A program made the position numbers and the translations under genes. From positions 1 through 36,215 of the forward strand of contig JAKAPS010000010.1 in assembly GCA_021806925.1 (NCBI GenBank): DNA of 36,215 bases, written 5' to 3'. The number at the start of each line of letters is the position of its first letter. The first letter of the stretch is position 1. The notes under the pieces are model-generated. The model was not told the DNA's origin, made no database searches, and was given only the letters and a program-made list of their open reading frames with translations. Shown here piece after piece: positions 6,647 to 19,352 of this stretch. Source of the stretch: a bacterium. GTDB lineage: Bacteria > Patescibacteriota > Dojkabacteria > JAKAPS01.

Positions 6647-6675
6647 TTCTTGAGAAGTTGAACGCAATTCGAGCT
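6647..6675 (+). repeat. Attachment-site-like 29-bp repeat, copy A (island left end)
   Basis: This is the leftmost of four direct repeats. It matches copy C at 25 of 29 positions, including the TTCT-GAGAA block and CAATTCGA. In the phase beginning at 6646 it reads F-L-E-K-L-N-A-I-R-A, the same tail as in the serine recombinase near 14733. It lies between the truncated gene at 6422-6640 and the regulator promoter, and is interpreted as the far-left attachment scar. Confidence 0.65.
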
Positions 6676-6695
6676 AAGCTGGAATTTATAAGATT

Positions 6696-6730
6696 TTGAC
6701 AGGGAGGGAAGTTCCTAGTATACTAGGAAC
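6696..6730 (+). promoter_or_regulatory. Consensus promoter with a 20-bp palindromic operator over the -10 box
   Basis: A perfect TTGACA (6696-6701) and TATACT (6719-6724) are separated by exactly 17 nt, the clearest promoter in the window. The -10 box sits at the centre of the perfect palindrome GTTCCTAGTATACTAGGAAC (6711-6730), followed by another CTAGGAAC half-site (6729-6736 region). A protein bound there would block RNA polymerase. The gene it drives encodes a winged-helix protein, so autoregulation is the simplest reading. Confidence 0.8.
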
Positions 6731-6747
6731 TAGGAACTTTTAAATAT

Positions 6748-7722
6748 ATGGCAACTTCAGAGGCAATAATTGAATATATTAAGAAAAATGGCCAAGCTAG
6801 CGGTAAAGATCTGTCAATTTACCTTCCAAATCTTACAACTCGTGCCATTAGGAAACAACTAAAAAACCTTTTGGAAAAGGGAATCCTTAGAAAAATAGGG
6901 CAACCGCCTAAGGTTTATTATCTTATAAATGAAGTAGAGAATACAAAGCAAATAATAGAAATAGATACAACTATAAAAGAAATTATTGATGAGAGGTATC
7001 TATATATTTCTCCGACAGGTGATATTGTTTCAGGGTGGGATGGCTTTGTCCTTTGGTGCAGTAGAACAAAGCAAGATGTAGTAAAAACTGCACATGAGTA
7101 TCTTAAGACTCTAGAAAAGTACGATAAATTTAAAAAAGAAGGTCTTATTGATGGAATGAATAAAATGAGAAACACATTTAAAGATGTCTTTCTTGATGAT
7201 GTTTTCTATATTGATTTCTACAGTATAGAAAGATTTGGTAAGACTAAACTAGGGCAAATGCTATTGTATGCAAAGCAAAGCCAAAATACTTCATTAATAA
7301 GGCAACTGATATCAGAAATTAAGCCTCAAATACTGCATGTTATAGATCTTTTTAATATTGATGGCGTATTGTTTGTTCCTCCAACTGTAAAACGCGAAAT
7401 TCAATTTATGAAGGAATTGGAACAATTTTTGCAATTGCCTGTAAGAACACTTGAAGTAACAAAAATAAAAACAGAAATTATAGTTCCCCAAAAGACTCTG
7501 TCTAAACTTGAAGATCGAGTGGAGAATGCGAAGAAAACTATTATTGTAAATGATACAAAATCGTATAAAAATATCTTGATTATTGATGACGCTGTTGGAT
7601 CAGGTTCTACATTAAATGAGACTGCAAAGCAAATAAGAAAAAGAAATATAGTAGAAGGAAAAATCATTGGTTTGTCAATTACAGGTAGCTTTAATGGATT
7701 TGATGTTATTAGTGAAGTTTAA
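6748..7722 (+). CDS. Winged-helix regulator with C-terminal phosphoribosyltransferase domain
   Basis: The product has 324 residues. Residues 1-60 look like a winged helix-turn-helix (repeated helices, then GILRKIGQPPKVYYL as the wing). Residues 275-324 hold a type I phosphoribosyltransferase PRPP loop, ILIIDDAVGSGSTLNETA, with the paired acids D280-D281. The middle (about 65-270) shows no motif I know. The layout recalls Gram-positive PurR, a DNA-binding protein whose PRTase domain senses PRPP; the similarity is in architecture only. Its promoter overlaps a perfect palindrome, and the convergent neighbour encodes a nucleosidase, so nucleobase or PRPP sensing is plausible. The stop codon abuts repeat B. 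It could also be a working PRTase with an HTH. Confidence 0.72.
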   Translation: MATSEAIIEYIKKNGQASGKDLSIYLPNLTTRAIRKQLKNLLEKGILRKIGQPPKVYYLINEVENTKQIIEIDTTIKEIIDERYLYISPTGDIVSGWDGFVLWCSRTKQDVVKTAHEYLKTLEKYDKFKKEGLIDGMNKMRNTFKDVFLDDVFYIDFYSIERFGKTKLGQMLLYAKQSQNTSLIRQLISEIKPQILHVIDLFNIDGVLFVPPTVKREIQFMKELEQFLQLPVRTLEVTKIKTEIIVPQKTLSKLEDRVENAKKTIIVNDTKSYKNILIIDDAVGSGSTLNETAKQIRKRNIVEGKIIGLSITGSFNGFDVISEV

Positions 7723-7730
7723 ATTTTAGA

Positions 7731-7759
7731 AACTGGAAAACCTGAAAGCAATTCGAACT
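7731..7759 (+). repeat. Attachment-site-like 29-bp repeat, copy B
   Basis: Over 45 positions (7722-7766 against 10051-10095) copies B and D match at 37 without gaps; the first 16, AATTTTAGAAACTGGA, are identical. In phase from 7730 it reads K-L-E-N-L-K-A-I-R-T. It lies between the convergent regulator and nucleosidase genes, filling almost the whole gap. Confidence 0.7.
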
Positions 7760-7760
7760 T

Positions 7761-8483
7761 TTATACTTTGAGTAGAATCTTTACAAATTCTGTAATGAAG
7801 CTAGCAAGGTTGTTCATAGCAATTTCAAAATTAAGAGAGAAATCACTTGCTTGATTATCATCTGAGGTGGTTGGTTCTTCTTTATCAGTTAGAGCTTTGA
7901 TCACATAAATAGATTTTGTAAAACCTAAAATTTGTGTAGCTTGTATAACCCCTGCTGCTTCCATCTCTTTAGCAATTACATCATTCTTTTTCATAACTTT
8001 CCATTCTTTGTCTGAGCTTGTAAAAGATTCTGCACTTGAAACAGTTCCTATTTTATAAGGAAATTGAATATTTTTGAAAATATCTAATTTAGACATTGCA
8101 ATTTTTCTTTCGCCATATCTATCATATCCAGGAAGAGGAATATGAATATCATGATTGGCAACATAATCTGCTACAATAATATCTCCAATTTCAATCCCTT
8201 TAGATGCAATTCCAGCAGCTGTTCCACAATTTATAATGACATCTGGATTATATCTTTCAATAAGTAGGGTAGTCGCAATTCCTGCTGATACTTTTCCAGG
8301 TCTTCCGACAGGGGAGACGTTGTAGGTTAGAAAATTTTTATCTTCTCCGGGAACGACCATAACAATACTTTCACTTGTGTAAATGAAGCATGTGCTATTT
8401 GTATCCACTTTCATAGATAAGTTTAAAGCTTTAGCAAGAATATTTGCTTCATCTTTAATTGCAACAATGATTCCTATTTTCAT
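7761..8483 (-). CDS. MTA/SAH nucleosidase-like enzyme (PNP/UDP phosphorylase family)
   Basis: This is a 240-residue single-domain enzyme of the nucleoside phosphorylase/hydrolase fold, of normal length. Recognisable parts: MKIGIIVAIKDE at the start with Glu12 at the position of the MTAN catalytic water-binding glutamate, INCGTAAGI (85-92, phosphate/ribose loop), K-E-M-E-A-A-G (172-178, ribose-binding glutamate) and Asp200 in ALTDKE, where the catalytic aspartate is expected. The family splits adenine from methylthioadenosine or S-adenosylhomocysteine, or phosphorolyses nucleosides; MTAN type is favoured but the substrate is uncertain. It has its own promoter with a palindrome at the start site and occupies one interval of the repeat array. 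Confidence 0.8.
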   Translation of the reverse strand: MKIGIIVAIKDEANILAKALNLSMKVDTNSTCFIYTSESIVMVVPGEDKNFLTYNVSPVGRPGKVSAGIATTLLIERYNPDVIINCGTAAGIASKGIEIGDIIVADYVANHDIHIPLPGYDRYGERKIAMSKLDIFKNIQFPYKIGTVSSAESFTSSDKEWKVMKKNDVIAKEMEAAGVIQATQILGFTKSIYVIKALTDKEEPTTSDDNQASDFSLNFEIAMNNLASFITEFVKILLKV

Positions 8484-8484
8484 G

Positions 8485-8509
8485 ATTATCGATAATACTA
8501 TGGATTATA
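8485..8509 (-). promoter_or_regulatory. Extended -10 promoter with palindrome at the transcription start
   Basis: On the minus strand TGC-TATAAT forms an extended -10 promoter (TATAAT at 8509-8504) for the nucleosidase gene; the -35 is weak (TTCGAA at 17 nt). The perfect 12-bp palindrome ATTATCGATAAT (8485-8496) lies between the -10 box and the ATG at 8483 and could be an operator. The same TGCTATAATCCA string recurs before the minus-strand gene at 15409. Confidence 0.6.
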
Positions 8510-8523
8510 GCAGAGTTAAAATG

Positions 8524-8571
8524 AAGTTCGAAGTGTTTCCTTAATTCAAATACTAGGATTCGAACTTAAAA
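8524..8571. repeat. Inverted TTCGAACTT arms with a tRNA-Gln T-arm-like sequence
   Basis: AAGTTCGAA (8524-8532) and TTCGAACTT (8559-8567) form a perfect 9-bp inverted repeat. The right arm lies in ACTAGGATTCGAACTTAAAA (8552-8571), which matches the tRNA-Gln T-arm region on the same strand (19287-19306) at 17 of 20 positions. It is probably another fossil of the tRNA-side attachment half, in the gap between the nucleosidase and copy C. Confidence 0.5.
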
Positions 8572-8650
8572 GCATTGATATAACAGTGAAATTACTAAAT
8601 GTCGGAAAATAGCTCTCTAAAGAATCTTGATTTTATGGGAAAAGTTTAAA

Positions 8651-8679
8651 TTCTGGAGAACTTGAACACAATTCGAACT
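8651..8679 (+). repeat. Attachment-site-like 29-bp repeat, copy C
   Basis: This copy is closest to the consensus: TTCTGGAGAAC, then a variable middle, then CAATTCGAACT. In phase from 8650 it reads I-L-E-N-L-N-T-I-R-T. The first 11 bases differ from the tRNA-Gln 3' end (TTCTGGGGAAC at 19278) at only one position. It lies in the 324-bp gene-free region 8484-8807, which otherwise holds the nucleosidase promoter, the inverted repeat at 8524-8571 and the ATPase promoter region. Confidence 0.7.
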
Positions 8680-8738
8680 CTATTTCTAGATATTTTGCTT
8701 TAAGTAAGGCTTTTTTGCTCTTGTCGATTTTTGAATAA

Positions 8739-8801
8739 CCTTAGGAATCCTAGGCTATACATTCCTAAGGTATTGACAGACCATAGGAATTAAGCTATTA
8801 T
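8739..8801 (+). promoter_or_regulatory. Operator-flanked promoter giving a leaderless ATPase mRNA
   Basis: TTGACA (8773-8778) and TATTAT (8796-8801) are 17 nt apart. The start ATG at 8808 lies only 6 nt after the -10 box, so transcription should begin at or beside it. Directly upstream of the -35 is a perfect 10-bp inverted repeat, CCTTAGGAAT (8739-8748) and ATTCCTAAGG (8761-8770), with CCTAGG between. A looser pair, ATAGGAAT (8783-8790) and ATTCC (8803-8807), brackets the -10. The TAGGAAY half-site also makes up the operator at 6711-6730. Confidence 0.7.
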
Positions 8802-8807
8802 TATTCC

Positions 8808-10058
8808 ATGGGTATAACAGGACAACAGCAAAAAACAATTGAATTATTAAACCCTTGGTATACTGGTCAAGAAGTTGATTTAGGGATAAGAAGAAATTCC
8901 TATCTGGATCAGGTTTCGTCCATTGTGAATAAACAAAAAGAGATATTTTTTCTTCTTGGATCTAGAAGAGTCGGTAAAACTGTCATTCTATTGCAATACA
9001 TTTATAAGCTAATAGAAGAAGGTGTTTCACCTAAAAATATACTATTCCTAAGTTTAGATAATACTAATATACAAGATTTAGATTTGTTTTCTTATTTGAG
9101 TGACTCAAGCTATGAGTATGTATTTCTTGACGAGGTACATTATTTCTCTAATTGGGCTCAGATACTAAAATCTTTGTATGATCTTCCACTCTTTAAAGCA
9201 AAAATTATTTGTTCTGGTTCATCGAGTAAGTTGATAGAAGATAATAAGGCATTTTTAACAGGAAGAACTACTTCAATAAGTGTATATCCGTTATCGTTTA
9301 ATGAATTTAAAGAATTTCTTCCCAATAGTCAAAATCAATTACATGATTATTTAAATTATGGTGGATACCCAGAGTACGTACTTGAAAAACAACCAAATTA
9401 TCTAAATGATTTATTACGAGATATTATTGAAAAAGATATATTAAAACTGCATAAGGTAGATAATAGCAAATATCTATTTGATATATGTCAGATATTAGCT
9501 AAACAAATTGGTTTTAAGGGATCTTCAAATAAGATTGCAAACGTTATAGGTATTGATAATAAGACAGCACTTAATTATATTGACTATCTTCATGAAGTGA
9601 AGTTAATTGATCAGATTTATCAATATTCCGATAGTCTTAATGAACAATTGTATGCACCTAAGAAATACTATTTTGAAGATTTAGGCATGCGGAATAGTTT
9701 TGTCGGATTTTCAGATATTGGTTCTTTAGTAGAAAATGCTATATTTATGAAGCTTTCTATAAAATTCGGATTGGAGAATATATATTATCTTTCAGATGGT
9801 AAGGCAAATGAGGTTGATTTTGTAGTTAGGCTTAAGGATGATAAATTACTATTTGTTGAATCAAAATATAATAACTTGCAAGAAAGTATTGCTAACTCTC
9901 TAAATCCACATTTTTTTAAAGATGTTTATGGGAAAACGGTAATAGATAGAATTGTTGTTACCGATAATGTAGAAGGGGGATATGCAATAAAAGATGTTCA
10001 AATTAGGATGGTTTACCTACAAAGTTTCTTGGAGAAGGATTCTACTTTAGAATTTTAG
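8808..10058 (+). CDS. AAA_14-DUF4143 ATPase
   Basis: The product has 416 residues. The N-terminal AAA domain has Walker A GSRRVGKT (51-58), Walker B YVFLDEVH (104-111), a sensor-like ICSGSSS (about 134-140) and GGYPEY (about 186-191), as in the AAA_14 family. The C-terminal part is the DUF4143 domain, ending in a PD-(D/E)xK nuclease-like pattern, N-E-V-D-F-V-V ... L-F-V-E-S-K-Y. Such ATPases are widespread in archaea and CPR bacteria, often in mobile or defence-like settings, with roles still unclear. The length is typical and the motifs are intact. It has its own operator-flanked promoter and ends inside repeat D, so it forms a one-gene interval of the array. Confidence 0.82.
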   Translation: MGITGQQQKTIELLNPWYTGQEVDLGIRRNSYLDQVSSIVNKQKEIFFLLGSRRVGKTVILLQYIYKLIEEGVSPKNILFLSLDNTNIQDLDLFSYLSDSSYEYVFLDEVHYFSNWAQILKSLYDLPLFKAKIICSGSSSKLIEDNKAFLTGRTTSISVYPLSFNEFKEFLPNSQNQLHDYLNYGGYPEYVLEKQPNYLNDLLRDIIEKDILKLHKVDNSKYLFDICQILAKQIGFKGSSNKIANVIGIDNKTALNYIDYLHEVKLIDQIYQYSDSLNEQLYAPKKYYFEDLGMRNSFVGFSDIGSLVENAIFMKLSIKFGLENIYYLSDGKANEVDFVVRLKDDKLLFVESKYNNLQESIANSLNPHFFKDVYGKTVIDRIVVTDNVEGGYAIKDVQIRMVYLQSFLEKDSTLEF

Positions 10059-10059
10059 A

Positions 10060-10088
10060 AACTGGAGAACCTGAACTTAATTTGAACT
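10060..10088 (+). repeat. Attachment-site-like 29-bp repeat, copy D
   Basis: It matches copy C at 23 of 29 positions and copy B over a longer 45-bp stretch. In phase from 10059 it reads K-L-E-N-L-N-L-I and then meets a stop, where other copies have I-R-T, because TCGAAC has become TTGAAC. The ATPase stop codon lies just before it. It is the last repeat copy before the larger replication/integration module. Confidence 0.65.
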
Positions 10089-10114
10089 CTCATGCTAATG
10101 CAACAATATATAAA

Positions 10115-10702
10115 TTAAATGATTTCTTTTAAAGGCTTTGGCATTTTGTCAAAAGTAAGAACATCTGCATGTGTGATTGTTTCTCTTGGAATATTGTAAA
10201 TTTTTTGATAAATCATATCTATACTTCCAAATTCACCTTGATTTTTATCAAATTTTAAGTCATTTACTACAATGTTTACCTTATCTTCATTAGGCCCTTC
10301 AATTTCTACAAATGGTTTTAAGCCAGGCCATGTATCGATTGTAATTTCACAATCTTTATAATGCCATTTTTCTCTATAGTTTTCTTGGTATGAAGTTACA
10401 CTTAATCCTATTTCTTCAAGAAATGAAACAGCATCCTTAAAACCGTTAACAATAATTTCCACTTCTTTGGTTCCATCAACACTATTAGGATCAACCACAT
10501 GCTTTATACTTGCTGTGATTTTATCTCCTTCATCTCTTACTCTTGCCCATTTATTAGGAACAGATAATGAATCAGGAAAATGTAAAACTTTTCGTCTCAT
10601 AAGAAATTTATCTTTTATCTTTTTCGCATTTAATTTTTCTAACTCACTACGAAATGCTGCTTCATCAATATTTAAAAATTTAATTTCAAATTCTATATTC
10701 AT
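10115..10702 (-). CDS. CYTH-domain phosphohydrolase or cyclase
   Basis: This 195-residue protein shows the CYTH hallmark ExExK at the N-terminus (E4-F-E6-I-K8), followed by alternating charged strands: RRKVLHF, WARVRDEGDK, ITASIKHV, VEIIVNGF, ITIDTWPGLKPFVEIEG. These line a metal- and triphosphate-binding tunnel. The family includes class IV adenylate cyclases and inorganic or thiamine triphosphatases; sequence alone does not choose between them, but ITIDTWPGLKPFVEIEG is typical of the CyaB-like group. It converges on the ATPase gene and lies just right of repeat D. Upstream of its ATG I see no clear promoter. Confidence 0.8.
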   Translation of the reverse strand: MNIEFEIKFLNIDEAAFRSELEKLNAKKIKDKFLMRRKVLHFPDSLSVPNKWARVRDEGDKITASIKHVVDPNSVDGTKEVEIIVNGFKDAVSFLEEIGLSVTSYQENYREKWHYKDCEITIDTWPGLKPFVEIEGPNEDKVNIVVNDLKFDKNQGEFGSIDMIYQKIYNIPRETITHADVLTFDKMPKPLKEII

Positions 10703-10764
10703 AATAAATATTAATGTCGGTTTAGCTTAAACATAGGAAAATATGTACCATTAGATGTTTTTTT

Positions 10765-10852
10765 CATATGATGATGTTAATACACAATGTTAGTTCGTTT
10801 TATATACTAACAAACTTTGATAAACTTATCAATACAACATCATACACATATG
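10765..10852. promoter_or_regulatory. Nested inverted repeats before the DUF5659 gene (operator or origin)
   Basis: Three inverted repeats are packed here. The outer pair is CATATGATGATGTT (10765-10778) against AACATCAT (10836-10843) plus CATATG (10847-10852), complementary except for three extra bases. Next is GTTAGT (10789-10794) with ACTAAC (10806-10811). Last is a compact palindrome TTGATAA-AC-TTATCAA (10817-10832). The last arm ends on the start codon of the first gene of the replication module. A regulatory region or a replication origin for a once-mobile element are both possible. Confidence 0.5.
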
Positions 10853-11104
10853 AATAATAATAAACTTTATCAAACAGAAGACCTCTTTCTCTGCGTAACA
10901 CTCACAGTTTTCGGCTTCCATCTAGAAAGTATTGAGATTAATACGAATTCTCAACGTGCAAGTTTTGTCTTTCATATATCTGATGATCTATTAAAAACTA
11001 TTGAAAATTATTGGAAACAACAGTTATCTGTTGAGCCCCAACGGCTATTTCAATCTTACCGCTTGGTGAGAAATAGATTACAAGAAGCTAAAAGAGATAT
11101 ATGA
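10850..11104 (+). CDS. DUF5659-like small protein
   Basis: From the ATG at 10850 the product has 84 residues (the longer form would need a TTG at 10817 inside a palindrome, so the ATG is preferred). It resembles the DUF5659 family: L-Y-Q-T-E-D-L-F-L-C-V-T-L at the start, then alternating strands (IEINTNSQRASFVFHI) and a helix with V-E-P-Q-R-L-F-Q-S-Y-R-L-V-R. The family is common near primase/recombinase genes in CPR-type mobile elements; its biochemical role is unknown. Its TGA overlaps the ATG of the CHC2 gene (ATGA), so they are co-translated. Family assignment is from remembered pattern. Confidence 0.6.
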   Translation: MNNNKLYQTEDLFLCVTLTVFGFHLESIEINTNSQRASFVFHISDDLLKTIENYWKQQLSVEPQRLFQSYRLVRNRLQEAKRDI

Positions 11105-11694
11105 GCAATAATAAAGATAAAAATAAAAATGAAAATAGCTTAAATATTTATCAAGAGGTAGAACTGTTTAACCAAAGTCCATACTTTAAAGAAATGATAC
11201 AAGGACTTTGTAGTGAGAGGGTTAAAGAAGTAAAAGGCTTATATTATGAGGTTTTTAATTACGTAAGTTATCTAAGGAAGAAATATCCTGATGAGGAGTT
11301 TTTAATATATTGCACTTTTGCTGAATATTTATATGAACCATTTTCTTTATATCTTGAGAAGATAAAGAATTTAAGATATTTGAATCTAGTTTTATCGCTA
11401 TTAAATGATAAAAAAGATAAAAATATAATTTACGATTTGGATATACTTAGGCAAGCAGATATCCTTCAAGTTGCACATAATCTTAATATTTCCTTATCCC
11501 GAAAAGGGAATTTATACCTTGCATTGTGCCCATTGCATGAAGAGAAAACTCCTTCATTTACTATTTATCCAAATACAAGCTCATTTTATTGCTTCGGCTG
11601 CGGAATAGGAGGAAATAGTATCGATTTGGCTATGAAAGTTCTTGCTGTAGATTTTGTAACTGCTATTCATTTCTTAACACATGGAAAGGCATAA
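11101..11694 (+). CDS. CHC2 zinc-finger primase-like protein without a catalytic domain
   Basis: The product has 197 residues. The C-terminal third is a DnaG-type zinc finger: C143-P-L-H146 ... S-F-Y-C164-F-G-C167 with G-G-N-S-I-D-L following, the usual DNA-binding module of primases. The TOPRIM catalytic part of DnaG is missing. The N-terminal 120 residues are charged and helical and match nothing I know. With the RecA-like ATPase downstream it looks like a compact replication pair of an integrated plasmid or phage-like element. It overlaps both neighbours' ends (ATGA with the DUF5659 gene), and the ATPase start lies 4 bp after its stop. Confidence 0.78.
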   Translation: MSNNKDKNKNENSLNIYQEVELFNQSPYFKEMIQGLCSERVKEVKGLYYEVFNYVSYLRKKYPDEEFLIYCTFAEYLYEPFSLYLEKIKNLRYLNLVLSLLNDKKDKNIIYDLDILRQADILQVAHNLNISLSRKGNLYLALCPLHEEKTPSFTIYPNTSSFYCFGCGIGGNSIDLAMKVLAVDFVTAIHFLTHGKA

Positions 11695-11698
11695 AGTA

Positions 11699-12556
11699 AT
11701 GGAAGAATTTATTGATAAGGTAAATAAAAATCCTAAGAAGGATGAAACTCCCCCTCCTAAAATGATGATACTTGATGATCTACTGTCAAAGCAGTTTGTA
11801 GAACAGCCAAATATTGTTGAACATATAATCCCATATGGAGGATGCTGCATCATTTCAGGTAGAGAAGGGAGTATGAAATCATATGTGACTGAGCACATTG
11901 CATATGCAGTAGCAAACGGATTATGGGTATTCGATCATTTTAAAGTTGAAGCAGGAAATGTTTGGATAATTGACCTTGAAAATAACGACGTTGAAACAGC
12001 AAAAAGAATGAAGTCCCTATTAAGATCAGAGCAAGAAGATAAAAATAAAGTCTTCTTTACATTCTTTGAAGATTTTCAGAAACCATTTGATGTAACAAAA
12101 GATGATAGTGTTAACTCAATTATTGCAGGCATAAAAAAGGAAGATATAAAGCTGGTAATTTTTGATAGCTTTGGTGATATTCAAAGTGTAGATGAGATTG
12201 ATAAAAGGCAGATGCAAACAGTTTTTAAGCAAATAAAGTTTATTCAAAAATACAATTGTGCTGTACTTCTTATCCAGCATAATAGAAAAGGTAGTGACAT
12301 AGGCGTTCCCAAGATAGATACAATGTTTGGTTCAATCAACATAAAAGCCCAAGCAGATTCTGTATTGATGGTTGATTTAGATGAAGATGAGAAAAAATTA
12401 AGATTTACCCAAGCTAAATATAGATATGGAGAAAAATTAAAGACATTTGAAGTTAGATACTCGTTTGGTGATAAAACTGAATTCATCTATCTAGGTGAGA
12501 GTAATTCTAATAAAAAGGAGCTTTCAAATCTGAACAGTGTAAAGAATATGTTCTAA
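11699..12556 (+). CDS. RecA-like replicative ATPase (AAA_25/RepA type), 3' end frameshifted
   Basis: The 285-residue reading begins at the ATG at 11699, chosen because GGAAAGG sits about 9 nt before it; an in-frame ATG at 11681 has no such site. Walker A is GREGSMKS (54-61), the Walker B-like strand is K-L-V-I-F-D (151-156), and L-L-I-Q-H-N-R-K-G is typical of RepA-like hexameric helicases. The frame stops after N-S-V-K-N-M-F, but the -1 frame goes on smoothly as E-Q-C-K-E-Y-V-L-N-L-L-N-D-Y-P-E-G into the next reading frame. One missing base near 12531 would explain the break. The ATPase core is intact; the C-terminal winged-helix-like part is on the shifted frame. A DNA-unwinding role beside the CHC2 protein is inferred. 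Confidence 0.75.
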   Translation: MEEFIDKVNKNPKKDETPPPKMMILDDLLSKQFVEQPNIVEHIIPYGGCCIISGREGSMKSYVTEHIAYAVANGLWVFDHFKVEAGNVWIIDLENNDVETAKRMKSLLRSEQEDKNKVFFTFFEDFQKPFDVTKDDSVNSIIAGIKKEDIKLVIFDSFGDIQSVDEIDKRQMQTVFKQIKFIQKYNCAVLLIQHNRKGSDIGVPKIDTMFGSINIKAQADSVLMVDLDEDEKKLRFTQAKYRYGEKLKTFEVRYSFGDKTEFIYLGESNSNKKELSNLNSVKNMF

Positions 12557-12582
12557 ATCTCTTAAATGATTATCCAGAAGGC

Positions 12583-12888
12583 ATGCTCAGGCCCGATATT
12601 ATTCAAATAATAGAAGATGAGAAAATTGCTAGCAAAAATATATGTGATGATGTTCTTAAGACTCTGAAATTAGATGGAACACTTATTGCAACAAGAAATA
12701 CAAATAAGGTGCTTCTTTACAAATTAGCTCCACTTTCCCAAAATCCCACTCTCTTTAATAGTAAAGAAAATTGGGAAAATGAAAGTCTATTAGAAACTCA
12801 AGTGGTTAATGTTTCTATTGATGAACTGACCAACCCTGAAACTGATATTTACAAGAAGTTTTTCAAAGATGAAGGAGAGACTGAGTAA
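12583..12888 (+). CDS. Out-of-frame C-terminal part of the RepA-like ATPase
   Basis: From its first ATG this frame gives 101 residues, but it is open back to 12514 and reads E-Q-C-K-E-Y-V-L-N-L-L-N-D-Y-P-E-G-M-L-R-P-D-I-I-Q before and across that ATG. No start codon occurs in the upstream part. It looks like a small winged-helix domain (I-A-S-K-N-I-C-D-D-V-L-K-T-L-K-L-D-G-T as recognition region) followed by an acidic tail. The simplest reading is the detached C-terminus of the preceding ATPase after a one-base deletion. Independent translation from 12583 would lose the first helix. Confidence 0.55.
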   Translation: MLRPDIIQIIEDEKIASKNICDDVLKTLKLDGTLIATRNTNKVLLYKLAPLSQNPTLFNSKENWENESLLETQVVNVSIDELTNPETDIYKKFFKDEGETE

Positions 12889-13036
12889 AGAGGCAATTGA
12901 AAAATTTAAACAGATAATGTTAGAAGATTATGGCTTATCCTTAACAGATGAAGAAGCTGAGGAACAGGCAGAAGATTTGCTATCCTTAATATTTGATGTG
13001 TTCAAGTCTCGTCAAAACATTAACAAAAGAACTTAA
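12869..13036 (+). CDS. Small 55-residue helical protein of the element
   Basis: ATG at 12869 and TAA at 13034-13036 frame a 55-residue protein (begins M-K-E-R-L-S-K-E-A-I-E-K-F-K, ends S-R-Q-N-I-N-K-R-T). It is rich in Glu, Lys and Leu and should be two amphipathic helices. It overlaps the 3' end of the preceding frame by 20 bp and keeps an uninterrupted coding pattern between ATPase and recombinase, which argues it is real. GAAGG and GGAGAG lie inside it, so no clear ribosome site precedes it. Function unknown; excision-factor or regulatory roles are guesses from position. Confidence 0.6.
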   Translation: MKERLSKEAIEKFKQIMLEDYGLSLTDEEAEEQAEDLLSLIFDVFKSRQNINKRT

Positions 13037-13077
13037 GTGGTGTATATTAGTTGTATCATACTCATCATCATAATCAT

Positions 13078-14818
13078 ATGGATAATATCGACCTCAAAAC
13101 CCTTAAAGTTCTCCCTTACGCAAGAAAATCGAAGATAGATAAGGAAGATAAAAAAATACTTAGTATTGAAGGCCAAACATAAGAAATCAAAAGATATGCT
13201 GATAAGTATAAGTTGAATATGCTTCCCATTATTGAAGAAAATGCTTCTGCTTATTCTATTGGAAGAGAAGGGTTTTCACGAGTTATGTCACTAATTGAAA
13301 ACGGAAAAGCAGATGCACTATCGTATATAATGCTACAAGATGCGCTCGAAATGCTCAAGACGGTGGATGGCTTATTTATCAATTAAGCACTGGGAATTTG
13401 AAAGCTATTATTACTCCTGACAAGACCTTTTATAATAATGCAGATGATAAATTCATGCTGCATATTCACTTTGCAATGGCAGAAAAACAATCTGATGATA
13501 CTTCTGCTTATGTAAAGCGTGATATTCAAGGAAAGTTAGACAGAAAAGAAGTTCCGAATAAAGTATGTGCTGGATACTTAAATATAGATAAAGAAGGAAG
13601 AATAGCAGGGAATGCTTTTGATCCAATCAAAAAATGGAAATGTTGTTTAAACTTACTCGACCATTAAAGCGTACAGAAATAGACCCTGTTGAAGGCCCTC
13701 TATGGCGTCAATTAGGTCATGAAATCATAGAAAAGAAGTATACACTTGGTGAAGCGTGGAAACGTGCCTTAGAGCTTGGCATTAAAGGGAGAGATTTTCA
13801 TAGACCTGTATCTAAAAACGTTGTTTCTTCAACATTCGAAAATCCACTAATGTATGGGTATATTCGAAATATAAGAGGCTTGTATGAAGGTGATTTTGAA
13901 TCAATTTTTTCTAAGAAAGAATATGACGAGATTAATGCTATATTGAATGCTTCTGATAAACCGACATATAAAAAAGATAGTGATTTTAATAAATATAATG
14001 GACTTGTTTTTTGTGGAGAGTGTGGAAGGCAATGGACAACTGAACCTCAAAAAAAGAAGCAAGGATATTTATATTTACGATGTGCAAAATCCAGAAAAGA
14101 TTATAAATGTTCCCAAAAGTATTTAGCTTTGAATAAATTTGAAGAGCAAGTAGAAAACTTACTCAGAAATATAAAGTTATCTCCTAAGCTTATTGATTTT
14201 TGTATAGAAGAAATACGCAAGATGAACGACAGAGAGTTTAGTGGTAATGATACGTTAAGAAAATCTCTTCATGCAAAAATTGATGATATAAATAATAGAC
14301 TAGCAGTTTTATTAAAGAAATGGTCTTCTCCAAATAATCTTAATGGAGAGCTTATGACAGATGAGGATTATTTATCTGAGAAAACTAAATTACAAGAAGA
14401 GCTAAAAAACTTACGAGAGCAGGTAGATAGTGTACAACAAATAAGAGATACCTTTTATGACGATTTAGAAGCTTTCTTTAGAGAAGCTAGAGATTTTGCA
14501 GAGATGTATAAGATGAATCCAGACAATATGGATTTAAAAAGAAGAATGCTTCTTAAAATTGCTTCGAACTTTGTGATAAAAGACAAAATAGTGCATATTA
14601 ACTTCAATAATCGATATCAAGGTCTAGCAAACATTCAAAATCTGTTAAAGGACGAAAACGGCTACTTCGAACCGCAAAATATGCAGGAAATATATAGTAA
14701 AGTTAGCTCTGTGAGTGGTTTACATGAAAGTCTTCTGGAGACCTTGATAGAAGTCCGCACTTTTTTAAGAGAGGAACAAAAATATATAGTTGTTAAAGAA
14801 AAGTTACTCGCTATTTGA
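13078..14818 (+). pseudogene. Large serine recombinase, inactivated by one stop and two frameshifts
   Basis: Starting at ATG 13078 the frame gives the resolvase N-terminus Y-A-R-K-S (nucleophile Ser18, codon 13129-13131) and S-I-E-G-Q, then hits TAA at 13180-13182 in place of a Glu/Gln codon. It goes on in frame to about 13324, where an extra AT in TATATA shifts it. The next frame carries A-R-N-A-Q-D-G-G-W-L-I-Y-Q-L and K-L-D-R-K-E-V-P to about 13630, where a six-A run is off by one. The last frame (from 13634) holds the recombinase domain, a zinc ribbon (C-G-E-C-G ... R-C-A-K-S ... K-C-S-Q-K), a coiled coil and the C-terminal tail. The family integrates and excises DNA at att sites. All domains are present, so the loss looks recent, or is partly sequencing error. 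The tail contains an attachment-like site at 14733. Confidence 0.85.
14733..14761 (+). repeat. Attachment-site-like segment inside the recombinase 3' end
   Basis: It begins TTCTGGAGA and matches repeat copy C at 21 of 29 positions. In the recombinase's own frame it encodes L-L-E-T-L-I-E-V-R-T, the peptide that copies A-D encode in the same phase. This links the repeats to recombinase gene ends and marks the probable junction between this module and the cargo module to its right. Confidence 0.5.
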
Positions 14819-14905
14819 TATATTTGGATATATTGAGTCAATGTTTTTAACTAACGGCTTTAGATTAACTTTAATAGTCTGGTAAGTAGAGTATAAACGA
14901 TGTTT

Positions 14906-15409
14906 TCATAATATATTTTGATCAAGTGTATATAGTTGTTGCTCCATTGTATGAAAATCACCAAGACTCATATTAACTAGATTCTTTGAATATTCATCAA
15001 GTGTTTCTATGGATGCAGGAAGAAAAGACTGTGCTAGTACATTTGTTAATGCGGAATAATAGTAAAACATGATATATACACTAATAGTGTAGTCAGAATT
15101 ATCAGTTTTACTGATTTGGTCTGATTTTAGTGCAGGATTACTGAGTCCAAGTGAATTGTAAAACTGTATGAGCAATTCTGCTGATTCATTGTGCGGTGCG
15201 GTTGCAAAGTTTGTTAGTCGATCAAGCCACTTCCCAGTTAGCTTTTCTAAAGAGTTTGTCTGTGTTCTTATCCTTTCAAGTGTTATTGCGGATTCTTTTT
15301 CTCCTTATTTTGATTTACCGTAAAAATATAATGCAAGCCAAATAGCTATTACAGCAAGAAGAAGGGAAGCAATGCTTGCTGATAGATTTATGTAGTCTAA
15401 TATAGTCAT
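14906..15409 (-). pseudogene. Membrane-anchored protein gene with an in-frame stop
   Basis: From ATG at 15409-15407 the frame encodes M-T-I-L-D-Y-I-N-L-S-A-S-I-A and one membrane helix ending W-L-A-L-Y-F-Y-G-K-S-K, then meets TAA at 15307-15305, and goes on without a break for 133 more residues to 14906 (E-S-A-I-T-L-E-R-I-R-T-Q ... L-T-G-K-W-L-D-R-L-T ...). A GAA-to-TAA change would explain the stop. The full product would be 167 residues: one N-terminal helix, then a long helical cytoplasmic part. The part after the stop could start only at a weak TTG (15175). Family not recognised. It is divergent from the cargo operon and has an extended -10 promoter (15435-15430). Confidence 0.65.
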
Positions 15410-15429
15410 AATATATTTATAATATGTGG

Positions 15430-15435
15430 ATTATA
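15430..15435 (-). promoter_or_regulatory. Extended -10 box for the broken membrane-protein gene
   Basis: TGC-TATAAT-CCA on the minus strand (TATAAT at 15435-15430) lies about 20 bp before the ATG at 15409. The same string precedes the nucleosidase gene, so both belong to one promoter style. No good -35 is seen. Confidence 0.5.
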
Positions 15436-15492
15436 GCATAATAAAAGGAAGAAGCTTTGTATAGAACAGTTATTCAAAGCAGAACAATAAAA

Positions 15493-15501
15493 TGATACAA
15501 T
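15493..15501 (+). promoter_or_regulatory. Probable extended -10 promoter of the cargo operon
   Basis: TGA-TACAAT (TACAAT at 15496-15501) has the TGn extension, with a weak TTCAAA 17 nt upstream (15473-15478). Transcription would start near 15508, giving a leader of about 17 nt before the transporter ATG at 15525, with no Shine-Dalgarno sequence. Confidence 0.45.
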
Positions 15502-15524
15502 CATTACAGTTATGATTATGCATT

Positions 15525-16400
15525 ATGTGGATTTTTTTATCATTAATTCAGGCAATTGGAATTTCCTTTGAAGGTGTTCTTCAGAAAAAAAGTACACTTC
15601 ACTTCAATGAATATATTGTTACTTGGTGTATTTTAGCTGTTTCTTCGATTTTTTATATACCAGTTCTGATTGGAACTGGTATCCCATCTCATCTGGATAG
15701 TGCCTTTTGGATTGCTGTTGTTGCAAGATTAGTAGTTGATTCAGCAGCTCTTCTTTTTTATATTAAAGCACTAAAGCATACTAACTTATCATTGGCAATT
15801 CCGATGATGTCTTTTGTTCCTGTTTTTTTAATATTTGTTTCCTTTATTGTTAACCATCTTTTTCCTACACCAATAGGTATACTTGGAGTTATAGTTGTAG
15901 TCTTTGGGGTATACCTTCTTAACTTTGACCATGACACAAAACATATATTATCACCGTTCTTTGCTATTAGAGATGACAAAGGTGTCAGATTTATGCTTCT
16001 TGCTGCATTTCTGTGGAGTTGGGTTAGTGCCTTACAAAAACTTGGTATTGATCACTCAAATGTTACTTTTTATACTTCCTTTTTTCAACCTGTCTGGGCA
16101 ATCCTTTTCTTTCCCTTAGCTTTCTTTTCAAATAGAAAGGAATTTATGACAATATTTCATTTAAAGAACTTGAAGATGCTTTTCCCTATTGGAGGGTTGG
16201 ATGTTATCCAGACAGTTGCTCAAAATATAGCATATACTCTTGCATTGCCTGTATATGTAACAGCGGTTGGAAGTACCAATTTACTCTTTGCTTCAATATT
16301 AGGGCACTATTTTTTTAAAGAAAAAGTTGGAAATAAAATCTTTCCTGTTGTTATTATTATTATTGGAATAGTTTTACTTAGTATTGCACAACCAACATAA
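15525..16400 (+). CDS. EamA/DMT-superfamily permease
   Basis: This 291-residue protein is almost wholly hydrophobic, with about ten membrane helices in two similar halves (roughly 1-135 and 150-290), the pattern of EamA drug/metabolite transporters. Halves start with L-S-L-I-Q-A-I-G-I-S-F-E-G-V-L-Q-K and L-L-A-A-F-L-W-S-W-V-S-A-L-Q-K, each with the small-residue-plus-QK end typical of helix 1 in the repeat. The family moves amino acids, nucleotides, sugars or drugs by exchange or proton coupling; the substrate is not predictable. It is first of a tight four-gene operon (2 bp to the next gene), suggesting its substrate is handled by the kinase, dehydrogenase and hydrolase that follow. Confidence 0.85.
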   Translation: MWIFLSLIQAIGISFEGVLQKKSTLHFNEYIVTWCILAVSSIFYIPVLIGTGIPSHLDSAFWIAVVARLVVDSAALLFYIKALKHTNLSLAIPMMSFVPVFLIFVSFIVNHLFPTPIGILGVIVVVFGVYLLNFDHDTKHILSPFFAIRDDKGVRFMLLAAFLWSWVSALQKLGIDHSNVTFYTSFFQPVWAILFFPLAFFSNRKEFMTIFHLKNLKMLFPIGGLDVIQTVAQNIAYTLALPVYVTAVGSTNLLFASILGHYFFKEKVGNKIFPVVIIIIGIVLLSIAQPT

Positions 16401-16402
16401 TT

Positions 16403-17035
16403 ATGGATATGAGAAAAATTATATTAATTGGAGGAGCTCCATTATCAGGAAAATCTACTCTTGCGTCCGAGCTTTCAAAGAAGTTGCAAATTTCTTGGGT
16501 ATCAACTGATGATATTAGAAAATGGATGGAAGCATTAGTAAGAAAAGAAGATTATCCAGATTTATTTTATGGTGATGGATTAGATGCAATTGCTTTTTAT
16601 GAAAAGTTTAAAACTCCAGATGAAGTGTTTCGTATGGAGAATAAACAAGGAGATGATGTACAAAAGGGTGTAAGAGCTATGATTGAATCTTTTTGGTGGT
16701 GGGATAAATTTATTATAGAAGGTATTGCTATTACTCCTGCTTTTGTAAAACAGTTTCAAGATGCCCATCAAGACATAGCAATTATTCCTGTTTTTATTGT
16801 TGATACTGATAGAGAGAATATAAAAATGCGACTAGAAAAAAGAGGTTTATGGGATGATGCAAATACGTATCCTGATTATATTACGCCACTTGAGCTGGAA
16901 TGGACTATTCTTTTTAATAATTTCTATCAAACTGAAACTGCAAAATATGATTATGAAGTTAGCGATATAAAAGACATCGCTAATACGATAGATCAAATAA
17001 TTACATTATTTAATAATTATGAAGCTACAAAATAA
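16403..17035 (+). CDS. P-loop small-molecule or nucleotide kinase
   Basis: This 210-residue protein begins with a Walker A motif, G-G-A-P-L-S-G-K-S-T (about 9-18), followed by V-S-T-D-D-I-R-K-W as a likely substrate-binding region. F-I-I-E-G-I-A-I-T (about 96-104) serves as Walker B, and E-K-R-G-L-W-D as a lid. It belongs to the broad adenylate/shikimate/2-phosphoglycerate-kinase-like or zeta-toxin-like group; the DDxR after the first helix fits kinases of small sugars or antibiotics as well as nucleotides. The ATG at 16403 or a second Met two codons on may be used. It overlaps the dehydrogenase gene by 17 bp. Exact substrate unknown. Confidence 0.72.
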   Translation: MDMRKIILIGGAPLSGKSTLASELSKKLQISWVSTDDIRKWMEALVRKEDYPDLFYGDGLDAIAFYEKFKTPDEVFRMENKQGDDVQKGVRAMIESFWWWDKFIIEGIAITPAFVKQFQDAHQDIAIIPVFIVDTDRENIKMRLEKRGLWDDANTYPDYITPLELEWTILFNNFYQTETAKYDYEVSDIKDIANTIDQIITLFNNYEATK

Positions 17036-17732
17036 AATAACTGTTGTAACAGGTGCAAGTACTGGTATTGGTAGAGCAATAGCTAAAGCATTTGCACAGG
17101 AAGGAGCTTTTGTGTATCTTCTTGGAAGAAATAAGGAAAGATTAGAAGAAACGTTACGAGAAATTGATAATAAAGGGAAAGTACAAGAGATTGACTTACG
17201 AGATAGAAATGCAATTAATGCATTTATTGAAAAAGTAAAGGAAGAGCAATCAAAGGTAGATATTCTTGCAAATATTGCTGGGATTTATCATAGTGAAAAT
17301 AAAGCATATACAGGCATTGCGTTTACTGATTACAGTGAAGATGAGATTCTTGATACGTATAAGATAGGTATTGATGCTCCAACTCTCCTCTCTTACGGAA
17401 TTATTCCTTTGATGCCAAAAGGAAGCAAAATTATTAATCTCTCTGGAACATTCGAAAGTGGAGCCAAAGGATGGTTACCTTATTATGTATCTAAAAAAGC
17501 TCTTGAAGATTTGACTGTAGGTTTATCTCAAGAACTCAGAGATAAAGAAATTCAAGTCAACTGTATTTCTCCATCTGATACACTTACTGAAAGTTATCAA
17601 AAGTTCTTTCCAGAATATGCAAATGAGGAAGAGAGTGTTAAACCAGAAGAAATAGGACATCTTGCTATATTTCTTGCATCTACAGAGGCAGATAATATAA
17701 CAGGACAAATTATTATTATAAAGCACAAATGA
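17019..17732 (+). CDS. Short-chain dehydrogenase/reductase
   Basis: The product has 237 residues, a classical SDR length. T-G-A-S-T-G-I-G (12-19) is the NAD(P) glycine motif, with L-G-R-N-K-E-R after the second strand (Arg favours NADP). N-I-A-G (about 88-91) stabilises the fold, and N-L-S-G ... P-Y-Y-V-S-K-K gives the catalytic Ser and Y-x3-K. C-I-S-P-S-D-T and N-I-T-G-Q complete the family pattern. All catalytic parts are intact, so it should reduce or oxidise a small hydroxy/keto compound. It is translationally coupled on both sides: a 17-bp overlap with the kinase gene and ATGA with the hydrolase gene. Confidence 0.88.
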   Translation: MKLQNKITVVTGASTGIGRAIAKAFAQEGAFVYLLGRNKERLEETLREIDNKGKVQEIDLRDRNAINAFIEKVKEEQSKVDILANIAGIYHSENKAYTGIAFTDYSEDEILDTYKIGIDAPTLLSYGIIPLMPKGSKIINLSGTFESGAKGWLPYYVSKKALEDLTVGLSQELRDKEIQVNCISPSDTLTESYQKFFPEYANEEESVKPEEIGHLAIFLASTEADNITGQIIIIKHK

Positions 17733-18850
17733 AAAACGCACTTATTTTACACGGTACAGATGCAGATCATAAGGCTAACTGGTTTGAATGGCTTGGTAAA
17801 GAGTTAGAAAAAGAAGGATACAAAGTATGGATACCAGATTTGCCTCATTCTGAAAAATCCAATATTGAAAGGTATAATAAATTCATCTTTGCAAATAAGA
17901 ATTGGGAATTTAATGATGAAAGTATCATTATTGGTCACTCCTCTGGTGCAGTTGCTACGCTAGGCCTTCTACAAGCTCTTCCAAAGGATATTATTGTTAA
18001 GCACGCATATTTAGTAGCTGTCTTTATTAACGATCTTAATTGGGATTCACTGACAGAACTCTTTGAAAAGCCACTTGACTATTCTCTTATAAAAAAACAT
18101 ACACAAAGATTTACTCTTTTTCATTCAGATAACGATCCTTATTGTCCAATGTTCCATGCAGAAACAGTACAGAAAGCATTGAATGCTGAGTTAATAATAA
18201 AAAAGAAACAAGGACATTTTAGTGCGAGTGAAAACCCTGAATACGTCAAATTTCCTGCATTACTAAAGATTATTACAAAAGATGACTTTACTCAACAGGA
18301 GTTATCGCATTTAAATTTATATGTACGAAAGGCGGATGAATTATTGAATAGTAAGTTTATTCAGTTATTAGAAGGGAAAATAACGTACAAGATGAAAGGA
18401 GAAAAAGGAAAGCCTATTACCATTAGTAATAATTTGCCTGACTCGGATTACTTCCTCACTTTTGTTACAAGAATAAGACCTTTTTTGCTGAATGATGAGC
18501 CAATATACTTTGATGCAATCTGCAAGCTATTGAAAGGAAAGAGCAATGACGACAGTTTAAAAAACAAAGTCATTGAAATTAAACGGTATTGTAACGAAGC
18601 CCTTGAGGGTAAACTTATTAATATGGGTTATAAATACGGTGAAAAAGAAATGCCTCCTAAGGATCTAATAGAGCTATTTTTATATGGTGATACGTTTCAT
18701 CTAAATGCTGATAAAGTTAAAATCTGGGAAAATATAAAAAACTATTCACTAGGGGTTACGGAAATCATACTTGCTGATACATTCATACATTTAGCAGATG
18801 GGATAATTGGGATTTCTAATTTGATTAAAGAAAACATTCTAAAAAGTTAA
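17729..18850 (+). CDS. RBBP9/YdeN-type alpha/beta hydrolase with an extra C-terminal domain
   Basis: The product has 373 residues. Residues 1-185 are a small serine hydrolase of the RBBP9/YdeN kind: I-L-H-G-T-D-A-D at the oxyanion strand, N-W-F-E-W-L, I-I-G-H-S-S-G (nucleophile elbow), S-D-N-D-P-Y-C-P (acid region) and K-Q-G-H-F-S-A-S (catalytic His). Residues about 190-373 form a second, mostly helical domain with R-I-R-P-F-L-L-N-D-E-P-I-Y-F and L-F-L-Y-G-D-T-F-H that I do not recognise; RBBP9-type proteins normally end at about 190 residues. It starts with ATGA overlap and ends the operon. An esterase or amidase activity is likely; the second domain may give substrate choice or a separate function. 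Confidence 0.75.
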   Translation: MKNALILHGTDADHKANWFEWLGKELEKEGYKVWIPDLPHSEKSNIERYNKFIFANKNWEFNDESIIIGHSSGAVATLGLLQALPKDIIVKHAYLVAVFINDLNWDSLTELFEKPLDYSLIKKHTQRFTLFHSDNDPYCPMFHAETVQKALNAELIIKKKQGHFSASENPEYVKFPALLKIITKDDFTQQELSHLNLYVRKADELLNSKFIQLLEGKITYKMKGEKGKPITISNNLPDSDYFLTFVTRIRPFLLNDEPIYFDAICKLLKGKSNDDSLKNKVIEIKRYCNEALEGKLINMGYKYGEKEMPPKDLIELFLYGDTFHLNADKVKIWENIKNYSLGVTEIILADTFIHLADGIIGISNLIKENILKS

Positions 18851-18947
18851 TGACACATTAAAAGTTATTCGATTTATCAGTTTATTAGCTTTTTCCTTAT
18901 AGTACTCTATTCTTATAGAGAATCATCCATTTATTATATACATAAGT

Positions 18948-18980
18948 AATCAGTAGAGATAGAACGTATCTCTACTGATT
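18948..18980. repeat. Perfect 14-bp inverted repeat (33-bp hairpin)
   Basis: AATCAGTAGAGATA (18948-18961) and TATCTCTACTGATT (18967-18980) are exact complements around a five-base loop. No T run follows, so it is not a standard terminator. It lies at the start of the recombinase remnant and about 100 bp after the cargo operon, where it could stop or stabilise the transcript. Confidence 0.6.
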
Positions 18981-19309
18981 TAGTCGATGTAGAGGATGAT
19001 AGAAGTATAGATGATACTCTTGATATGCTAAATTTTTGCAAAAGAGCAATTCAGGAGTTTGAGGATGGTGATATGTATAAGCGGAGAGAGATATTTATAA
19101 AGTTAGGTTCGCACTTTACTTTGCAAGACAAAAAACTCGATATTAAGTACAAAAAATCAATCTTCAAGTTAAAAACAGAGCTAGATTCATACAGAGCAGA
19201 AAATACACGGTTCGCACCAGTAGAAAATGCTGATATAAAAGCAAAACTACCTCCTGTTGAGGTAGTAAGTTCTAGGTTTCTGGGGAACCAGGATTCGAAC
19301 CTAGAATAA
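18950..19309 (+). pseudogene. C-terminal remnant of a second serine recombinase, running into tRNA-Gln
   Basis: After a TAA at 18947 an open frame of about 119 codons reads S-V-E-I-E-R-I-S-T-D ... then L-N-F-C-K-R-A-I-Q-E-F, Y-K-R-R-E-I-F-I-K-L-G-S-H-F and K-K-L-D-I-K-Y. It parallels the C-terminal part of the recombinase at 14500-14640 (F-A-E-M-Y-K ... L-K-R-R-M-L-L-K-I-A-S-N-F). The catalytic and zinc parts are absent. Its last codons, F-L-G-N-Q-D-S-N-L-E, are read from the complement of the tRNA-Gln 3' end, as expected for a recombinase whose attachment site lies in its own 3' end after integration into a tRNA gene. An ATG at 19025 could start a 94-residue peptide, but function is unlikely. 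Confidence 0.75.
19270..19306. repeat. Inverted repeat around the tRNA-Gln 3' end (attachment site)
   Basis: TTCTAGGTT (19270-19278) and AACCTAGAA (19298-19306) form a perfect 9-bp inverted repeat centred on the acceptor/T-arm part of tRNA-Gln. The right arm is tRNA sequence; the left arm lies outside the tRNA, in the recombinase remnant. TTCTGGGGAACC (19278-19289), shared with the 29-bp repeats but for one or two bases, is the likely exchange core. Confidence 0.55.
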
Positions 19310-19350
19310 TGGGACCAAAACCCAACGTGATGCCGTTTCACCATTCCCCA
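19280..19350 (-). tRNA. trnQ: tRNA-Gln (anticodon TTG)
   Basis: The minus strand folds as a cloverleaf with acceptor TGGGGAA/TTCCCCA, anticodon loop with TTG, T-loop TTCGAAT and discriminator G. CCA is not encoded. It is the last gene of the cluster, and its 3' end is the apparent integration site of the island. Confidence 0.93.
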
Positions 19351-19352
19351 AA

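Follow-up and report, generated by a model that had tools for sequence, protein, structure and literature searches.

A probable stack of serine-recombinase attachment sites and one-gene cassettes at the 3' end of a tRNA-Gln gene in a Dojkabacteria genome

Composite forms, and units without ccr, occur among the staphylococcal and enterococcal cassette chromosomes (SCC/ECC). These elements, the products of the large serine recombinases (LSRs) CcrAB, are islands with direct-repeat attachment (att) sites at the 3' end of a conserved gene, rlmH (PMC6222049). Integrative and conjugative elements and integrative mobilizable elements (ICEs and IMEs) show tandem accretion, with stacking at the gene-proximal att site, and also give rise to cis-mobilizable elements (CIMEs), in which the recombinase genes are lost and the att sites are kept (PMC5704250). 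The dif modules of Acinetobacter plasmids are small toxin-antitoxin and accessory modules recombined by XerC/XerD, with the recombinase encoded elsewhere (PMC6449649, PMC13141974). The present analysis concerns a locus in an entire 36-kb contig (JAKAPS010000010.1 of assembly GCA_021806925.1; all 36,215 nucleotides are called the window below) from a draft genome of the Dojkabacteria (0.93 Mb, 92.7% complete). At the 3' end of its tRNA-Gln(TTG) gene, LSRs that target tRNAs have very likely stacked up integrative elements together with minimal cassettes.

This locus resembles the SCC/ECC islands in its apparent formation by LSRs, in the direct-repeat att sites adjoining one conserved gene at its 3' end and in its variable cargo. 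However, those islands are CcrAB insertions in rlmH spanning tens of kb, whereas the anchors here are the 3' ends of tRNA genes of five isotypes, and the units are many, 0.5-2.4 kb long, and hold one gene or a gene pair. The small intervals share with CIMEs the retention of att sites and the loss of the recombinase; CIMEs, though, are decayed islands, while these are discrete one-gene cassettes recurring at several tRNA genes and in several genera. As in integrons, one-gene cassettes, often of toxin-antitoxin type, form arrays that appear to be fed at one end of a fixed platform, but in place of attC/attI and IntI there are short LSR half-sites with a tRNA-copied core, a tRNA 3' end as the platform and the LSR family. 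The dif modules are similarly small toxin-antitoxin or accessory units, but they use Xer sites on plasmids, whereas here LSR-type sites lie in direct orientation at chromosomal tRNA genes. A search of the literature on Patescibacteria or the Candidate Phyla Radiation together with serine recombinases, integrons or tRNA islands, which left subscription journals and preprints uncovered, found no published description of such arrays and no integron-type system described in Patescibacteria. There is a real chance that the array layout merits its own name.

In the window, five sites of the same orientation precede the 3' end of the tRNA gene:

6647..6678, + strand: half-site 1, a P'-type attachment half-site and the left border of the array, the most divergent of the four intergenic copies
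7731..7762, + strand: half-site 2, a copy of the 29-bp repeat
8651..8682, + strand: half-site 3, a copy of the 29-bp repeat
10060..10091, + strand: half-site 4, a copy of the 29-bp repeat
14733..14764, + strand: half-site 5, degenerate, within the 3' end of a broken LSR gene
19279..19351, - strand: tRNA-Gln(TTG), whose 3' end is the B' (attB-type) half-site

These sites bound three one-gene cassettes, a 4.7-kb segment with the broken LSR at its end and a 4.5-kb segment with an LSR remnant running into the tRNA. An earlier note on this DNA had described four 29-bp repeats in one orientation around three intervals of one gene each, and had found half of the repeat one base away from the tRNA-Gln 3' end. 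All of this holds: the copies lie on the + strand at 6647, 7731, 8651 and 10060 with spacings of 1084, 920 and 1409 bp, TTCTGGAGAAC and TTCTGGGGAAC agree in 10 of 11 bases, and ATTCGAAC is common to repeat and tRNA. Repeats scattered over the genome with no link to recombinases or tRNA genes had been named as evidence that would speak against the proposal, and there are no copies outside the array in this genome. With up to 3 mismatches the 29-bp pattern has four matches in the window, none further in the 0.93-Mb genome, and none in 100 dinucleotide shuffles. The fifth site, at 14733, was recognized by a position-weight model (leave-one-out score 19.4 against a control maximum of 16.8 in 0.56 Mb), and genome-wide model searches give a total of five sites, every one of them in this array. 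The note's suggestion that all copies encode a common recombinase tail (LENLxxIRT) has to be given up, and with it the view of the repeats as a shared recombinase C-terminus, as only the copy at 14733 lies within a recombinase open reading frame (ORF). The other four copies are intergenic, and therefore the likeness lies at the level of DNA, as an attachment site, rather than of protein.

Read from the central GG, the repeats have the form GG-AGAACYTGAACGCA-ATTCGAAC and the tRNA 3' end the form GG-GGAACCAGG-ATTCGAAC, so that the core is common to both and the T-loop-like motif ATTCGAAC stands at +15 in the repeat and +10 in the tRNA, an offset of 5 bp. The motif bound by the zinc ribbon of LSRs occupies bp 16-24 of the attP half-site and bp 11-19 of the attB half-site, 5 bp nearer the centre (Rutherford et al., PMC3783163). 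The same 5-bp displacement of the zinc-ribbon motif, as expected of an LSR element, is seen here, and the repeats of the window can be recognized as attP-type half-sites. Across 21 pairings of a site with its tRNA (Gln, Ser, Asn, Asp and Glu), in which pairs from one array or lineage are not independent, the best core match falls at a shift of 5 in 20 (as the sole best in 13, in a tie in 7), and runs of at least 5 matching bases at this shift are present in 67% of the true pairs as against 0.14% of wrong-isotype pairs. The site models were built from sites without tRNAs, so that this fit to the tRNA is an independent test. A shift of 4 bp for the Ser sites was considered and rejected, since alignment on the shared CGG gives a shift of 5.

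In the mechanism that best explains the locus, the circular form of a unit would carry attP in the form P-GG-P', which an LSR would join to the tRNA 3' end (attB, with half-site B'), rebuilding the tRNA. ARAGORN finds the tRNA genes at the array ends intact, as a rebuilt target gene would be. The incoming DNA would come to lie downstream of the tRNA; its far end would bear P', directed towards the tRNA, and its tRNA-proximal end P. Newcomers would enter at the tRNA-side junction and displace older units outward, and the resulting P(older)-GG-P'(newer) borders would be the repeats. Some units would carry an LSR gene at their P end, while others would be reduced to site halves with one gene or a toxin-antitoxin pair. 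Given that the LSR-less cassettes share site halves with LSR-bearing units, they probably moved in trans, and the nesting of the junctions suggests capture one by one. There is a faint indication that the outermost unit might be the oldest: the copy at 6647 is the most divergent intergenic one, yet that at 14733 diverges more.

Evidence for site-specific recombination comes from other genomes, designated here by our own handles (G001 and so on). The one-gene cassettes of the window are as follows:

6748..7722, + strand: cassette 1 gene, 324 aa, helix-turn-helix (HTH) and phosphoribosyltransferase-like (PRTase-CE, under the Pfam cut-off; PADLOC PsyrT-like)
7761..8483, - strand: cassette 2 gene, 240 aa, nucleosidase (PNP_UDP_1)
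8808..10058, + strand: cassette 3 gene, 416 aa, AAA_14/DUF4143 ATPase (PADLOC PDC-S01)

Homologs of the cassette 1 protein with 66-67% identity occur in G003 and G007 (another family of the order), where a site of this architecture lies on either side of them; in each genome one of the two sites is degenerate. The AAA_14/DUF4143 family of cassette 3 recurs in a cassette at tRNA-Ser of G009, and the nucleosidase of cassette 2 has a partial match to an effector model in the PADLOC scan. The left arms of internal sites are homologous, up to the crossover, to the DNA beside the tRNA 3' ends of other genes or genomes:

G003 contig C2, 27269, and G009 tRNA-Ser(CGA): 92% over 151 bp
G007 contig C24, 112235, and G003 tRNA-Ser(GCT): 90% over 151 bp
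G003 contig C2, 25724, and G003 tRNA-Ser(CGA): 99% over 151 bp
G007 contig C24, 99699, and G007 tRNA-Ser(TGA): 94% over 109 bp
G003 tRNA-Ser(TGA) and G007 tRNA-Ser(GCT): 95% over 152 bp

Right flanks may likewise be homologous from the first base past the site while the left arms differ (G003 25724 and G007 112235, 100% over 108 bp). In all junctions the breakpoint lies at the GG of C(T/G)GG, and not at the G-TT of the R box that typifies integron attC. Identical unit ends joined to several partners at one point are the signature of site-specific recombination. The central proposal of the earlier note, namely serine-recombinase scars at tRNA-Gln around one-gene cassettes in an integron-like layout, is supported by the attP/attB geometry and the two-sided sites in other genera, and further by the precise junctions at several tRNA genes and by the segments whose tRNA-proximal end holds an LSR gene.

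Two LSR sequences are present in the window:

~13078..14818, + strand: broken LSR, a Resolvase domain with a stop and frame changes, followed by an open frame at 13634-14818
18950..19309, + strand: C-terminal remnant of an LSR of the tRNA-Gln family, whose frame enters the tRNA 3' end (SRFLGNQDSNLE)

A recombinase gene had already been noticed at 14733 and is indeed there, but it is broken: its frame is interrupted by one stop and changes two or more times. The remnant at 18950-19309, absent from the earlier note, is the LSR sequence that enters tRNA-Gln in the window; it is 59% identical to an LSR of the same family that similarly enters tRNA-Gln(CTG) on contig C10 of the same genome. The same LSR tail lies at the same tRNA-Gln in G001, a genome of the window's family (Patescibacteria group bacterium CRAIB_MAG31). 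Open LSRs of 579 and 553 aa, with tails reading through the tRNA, are found directly at tRNA-Gln(TTG) in G003 and G007, respectively; the Resolvase domain is above the cut-off in both and the Recombinase domain only in the G007 protein. The latter is preceded by CHC2 and DUF5659 genes that match those of the LSR segment of the window at 50% and 44% over the matched parts. The final 63 bp of an LSR-less cassette of G005 match the 3' end of the LSR gene of G003 at 87% identity, and thus LSR-bearing and LSR-less units share site halves there. An LSR gene within the element and adjoining the att site is found in the segments of the window and in G003 and G007, and is lacking in the small cassettes. 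Across the class (L095-L110), LSR frames end within the reverse complement of tRNA 3' ends (His, Ser, Gln, Asn and Pro), which means that the tRNA sequence supplies the protein tail; a search for tRNA-derived cores at the far ends of the other LSR elements of the class gave no clear match for His, Ser, Asn, Pro and Arg within 19 kb. In G084 two tandem LSR elements lie at tRNA-Gln(CTG) (L097:133, 5544 and 17740), each border carrying a 21-bp copy of the tRNA 3' end and, after it, GTAACATGTC. Its duplicated tRNA-Gln fragments are at 133 and 5544, with a P'-like arm at 262, and it was retained as a supporting case only, because the tRNA fragments may be true ends.

The earlier note had advised looking for the repeat next to tRNA-Gln in related genomes, and pattern and model searches recovered sites in nine of the 10 genomes of the order. 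They face tRNA-Gln(TTG) in G003 and G004, where the tRNA cluster is the same as in the window, tRNA-Gln(CTG) in G001 and G003, and tRNA-Ser at three genes in G007 and at one in G009; G005 has an array of five sites on a contig that lacks the tRNA. In a sample of the phylum (380 genomes), a match with E<=0.01 is found in 36 genomes that lie outside the order, where about 4 would be expected if the E-values were exact, which they are not; weak matches on the outer arm alone were counted only with supporting context. Inspected matches have fitting cores for tRNA-Asn (G402, G211), tRNA-Asp (G193), tRNA-Glu (G285) and tRNA-Gln (G163), and short arrays with sites in one orientation are seen in G249 and G103. 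The exact pattern is superseded by the model searches because the core differs by lineage: a scan of 85,000 genomes with it recovered G001 as the sole record of this group, and the other seven records, with one match each and from unrelated taxa, were put down to chance uninspected. In viral contigs the outer-arm pattern matches one phage coding gene only and a longer pattern has one match; no relative of the LSR or of the AAA_25 protein was found there, and the cassette 1 protein has one distant partial match. It is quite possible, if somewhat less than probable, that these sites belong to a Patescibacteria-wide cassette system, in which tRNA 3' ends would be the platforms, a half-site (approximately GTGGACGATRTTCGAACYTTT after a tRNA-copying core) would define the cassettes, and the LSRs of resident or incoming elements would collect, shuffle and spread one-gene toxin-antitoxin or defence cassettes in trans, as a serine-recombinase counterpart of the integron. 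If true, an LSR-based, tRNA-anchored array would explain how Patescibacteria with their very small genomes acquire defence and toxin-antitoxin genes and exchange them. With the half-site rule, recombinase-less cassettes can be found from sequence alone and the tRNA targeted by each array can be predicted, and the several isotype specificities on one shared arm render LSR target choice directly testable.

Several observations weigh against assembly of the stack by LSRs. Both LSRs of the window are broken, the Resolvase-domain search of G001, the only one run on that genome, found none, and the tRNA-Ser arrays yielded no LSR. The P (left) arms are little conserved beyond NCT-GG or T-CGG, unlike a typical symmetric attP; some of the larger intervals are multi-gene; and cassette 4 of G005, alone among the cassettes, ends in a 24-codon LSR 3' fragment. 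Movement itself is presumed from the sequences, with no excision, circle or integration observed. Deletion may contribute to some intervals, and some cassettes may derive in this way from larger elements. The best-surviving alternative, though an unlikely one, is that decay did everything: tandem full LSR elements would have lost most of their genes including the recombinase, and the one-gene intervals would be CIME-like deletion remnants that were never mobile as small units. Tandem accretion and CIMEs are indeed known (PMC5704250), and the LSR remnants at 13078-14818 and 18950-19309 are what such decay would leave, as is the 24-codon fragment of the G005 cassette. However, the same small units recur, precise at both borders, at more than one tRNA gene and in more than one genus, the genes of the window end 2 to ~30 bp from the sites with their neighbours not truncated, and it would be rare for independent deletions to spare, time after time, a single intact gene or a complete toxin-antitoxin pair. 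Recombination of these sites by an integron- or Xer-like tyrosine recombinase, with the LSRs as bystanders, is quite improbable; although one-gene and toxin-antitoxin cassettes are typical of integrons and Xer-driven dif modules, and the poorly conserved left arms and the tRNA-Ser arrays without a detected LSR would be in keeping with it, the 5-bp attP/attB shift is a property of LSRs, the crossover is at the GG of the tRNA acceptor end, where the LSR genes end too, and the borders are no different in units that bear an LSR (10060 and 14733 in the window, and the tRNA-Gln array of G003). That the repeats are regulatory or transcriptional, or chance products of an AT-rich region rich in weak repeats, with no role in recombination, has next to no likelihood, for while they are intergenic, they are confined to the array in this genome, keep a fixed shift to the tRNA isotype and coincide with homology breakpoints, so that the junction and isotype data already contradict it.

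Among the cassettes attributed above to tRNA-targeting LSRs, the small ones contain one gene, or one or two pairs, and no LSR ORF. Their families, which are matches by name with putative functions, include HicA/HicB (two G003 cassettes), BrnT/CopG with DUF5615/DUF433, YafQ/ParE-type toxins, NYN proteins, AAA_14/DUF4143 and PRTase, while AbiEi/AbiEii and a type II restriction enzyme with its methylase occur in larger or neighbouring segments. The small cassettes appear to carry toxin-antitoxin or defence-type genes, which might be retained for defence or addiction. On contig C19 of G007 (L231:1-2517), RHH/RelE-like, NYN, HicB/HicA and CYTH genes are packed into 2.5 kb before a site, and fainter internal borders may have been missed there by the model. 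The remaining segments of the window comprise:

10115..12888, mixed strands: left part of the LSR-bearing segment, five genes before the broken LSR
10115-10702, - strand: CYTH, in the LSR-bearing segment
10817-11104, + strand: DUF5659, in the LSR-bearing segment, with a homolog in the G007 LSR element
11101-11694, + strand: CHC2 zinc finger, in the LSR-bearing segment, with a homolog in the G007 LSR element
11681-12556, + strand: AAA_25 ATPase, in the LSR-bearing segment
12583-12888, + strand: small ORF, in the LSR-bearing segment
15525..18850, + strand: last segment, with an EamA transporter, P-loop kinase, short-chain dehydrogenase and serine hydrolase

On the far side of the array, tRNA-Gln(TTG) leads into a tRNA cluster, Gln-Gly-Phe-Val-Leu-Leu, and then into a flank syntenic with contig C17 of G001. 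The chromosomal flank to the left of the site at 6647 encodes a sortase, a PAP2 protein, a CBM protein and a glycosyltransferase, and in G006 homologs of the last two lie next to each other.

Just 5' of the genes of cassettes 1 and 3 (6720-6745 and 8740-8800) there are inverted repeats (TTCCTAG...CTAGGAA and similar), and similar ones are found just 5' of the cassette 1 homologs (L116, L117); these could be operators, in which case the cassettes might bring their own promoters. Between cassette 2 and the site at 8651, the sequence ACTAGGATTCGAACTT at 8550-8567 matches the T-arm of the G001 tRNA-Gln(CTG) in 15 of 16 bases and forms an inverted pair with AAGTTCGAA at 8524; it is perhaps a fossil B' half-site. 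A paralog of the cassette 2 nucleosidase (60% identical) adjoins tRNA-His on contig C19 of the window's genome (L055:7030-9129); it is split by a two-ORF transposase-like insertion and was set aside as a candidate cassette. Finally, G238, G182 and G211 each have two inverted P'-type arms 2.4-3.2 kb apart (L219:3560-6023, L218:3763-7022 and L220:134-2987, respectively), and behind each arm 98-198 bp are near-identical, giving units with long inverted ends that start at the half-site.

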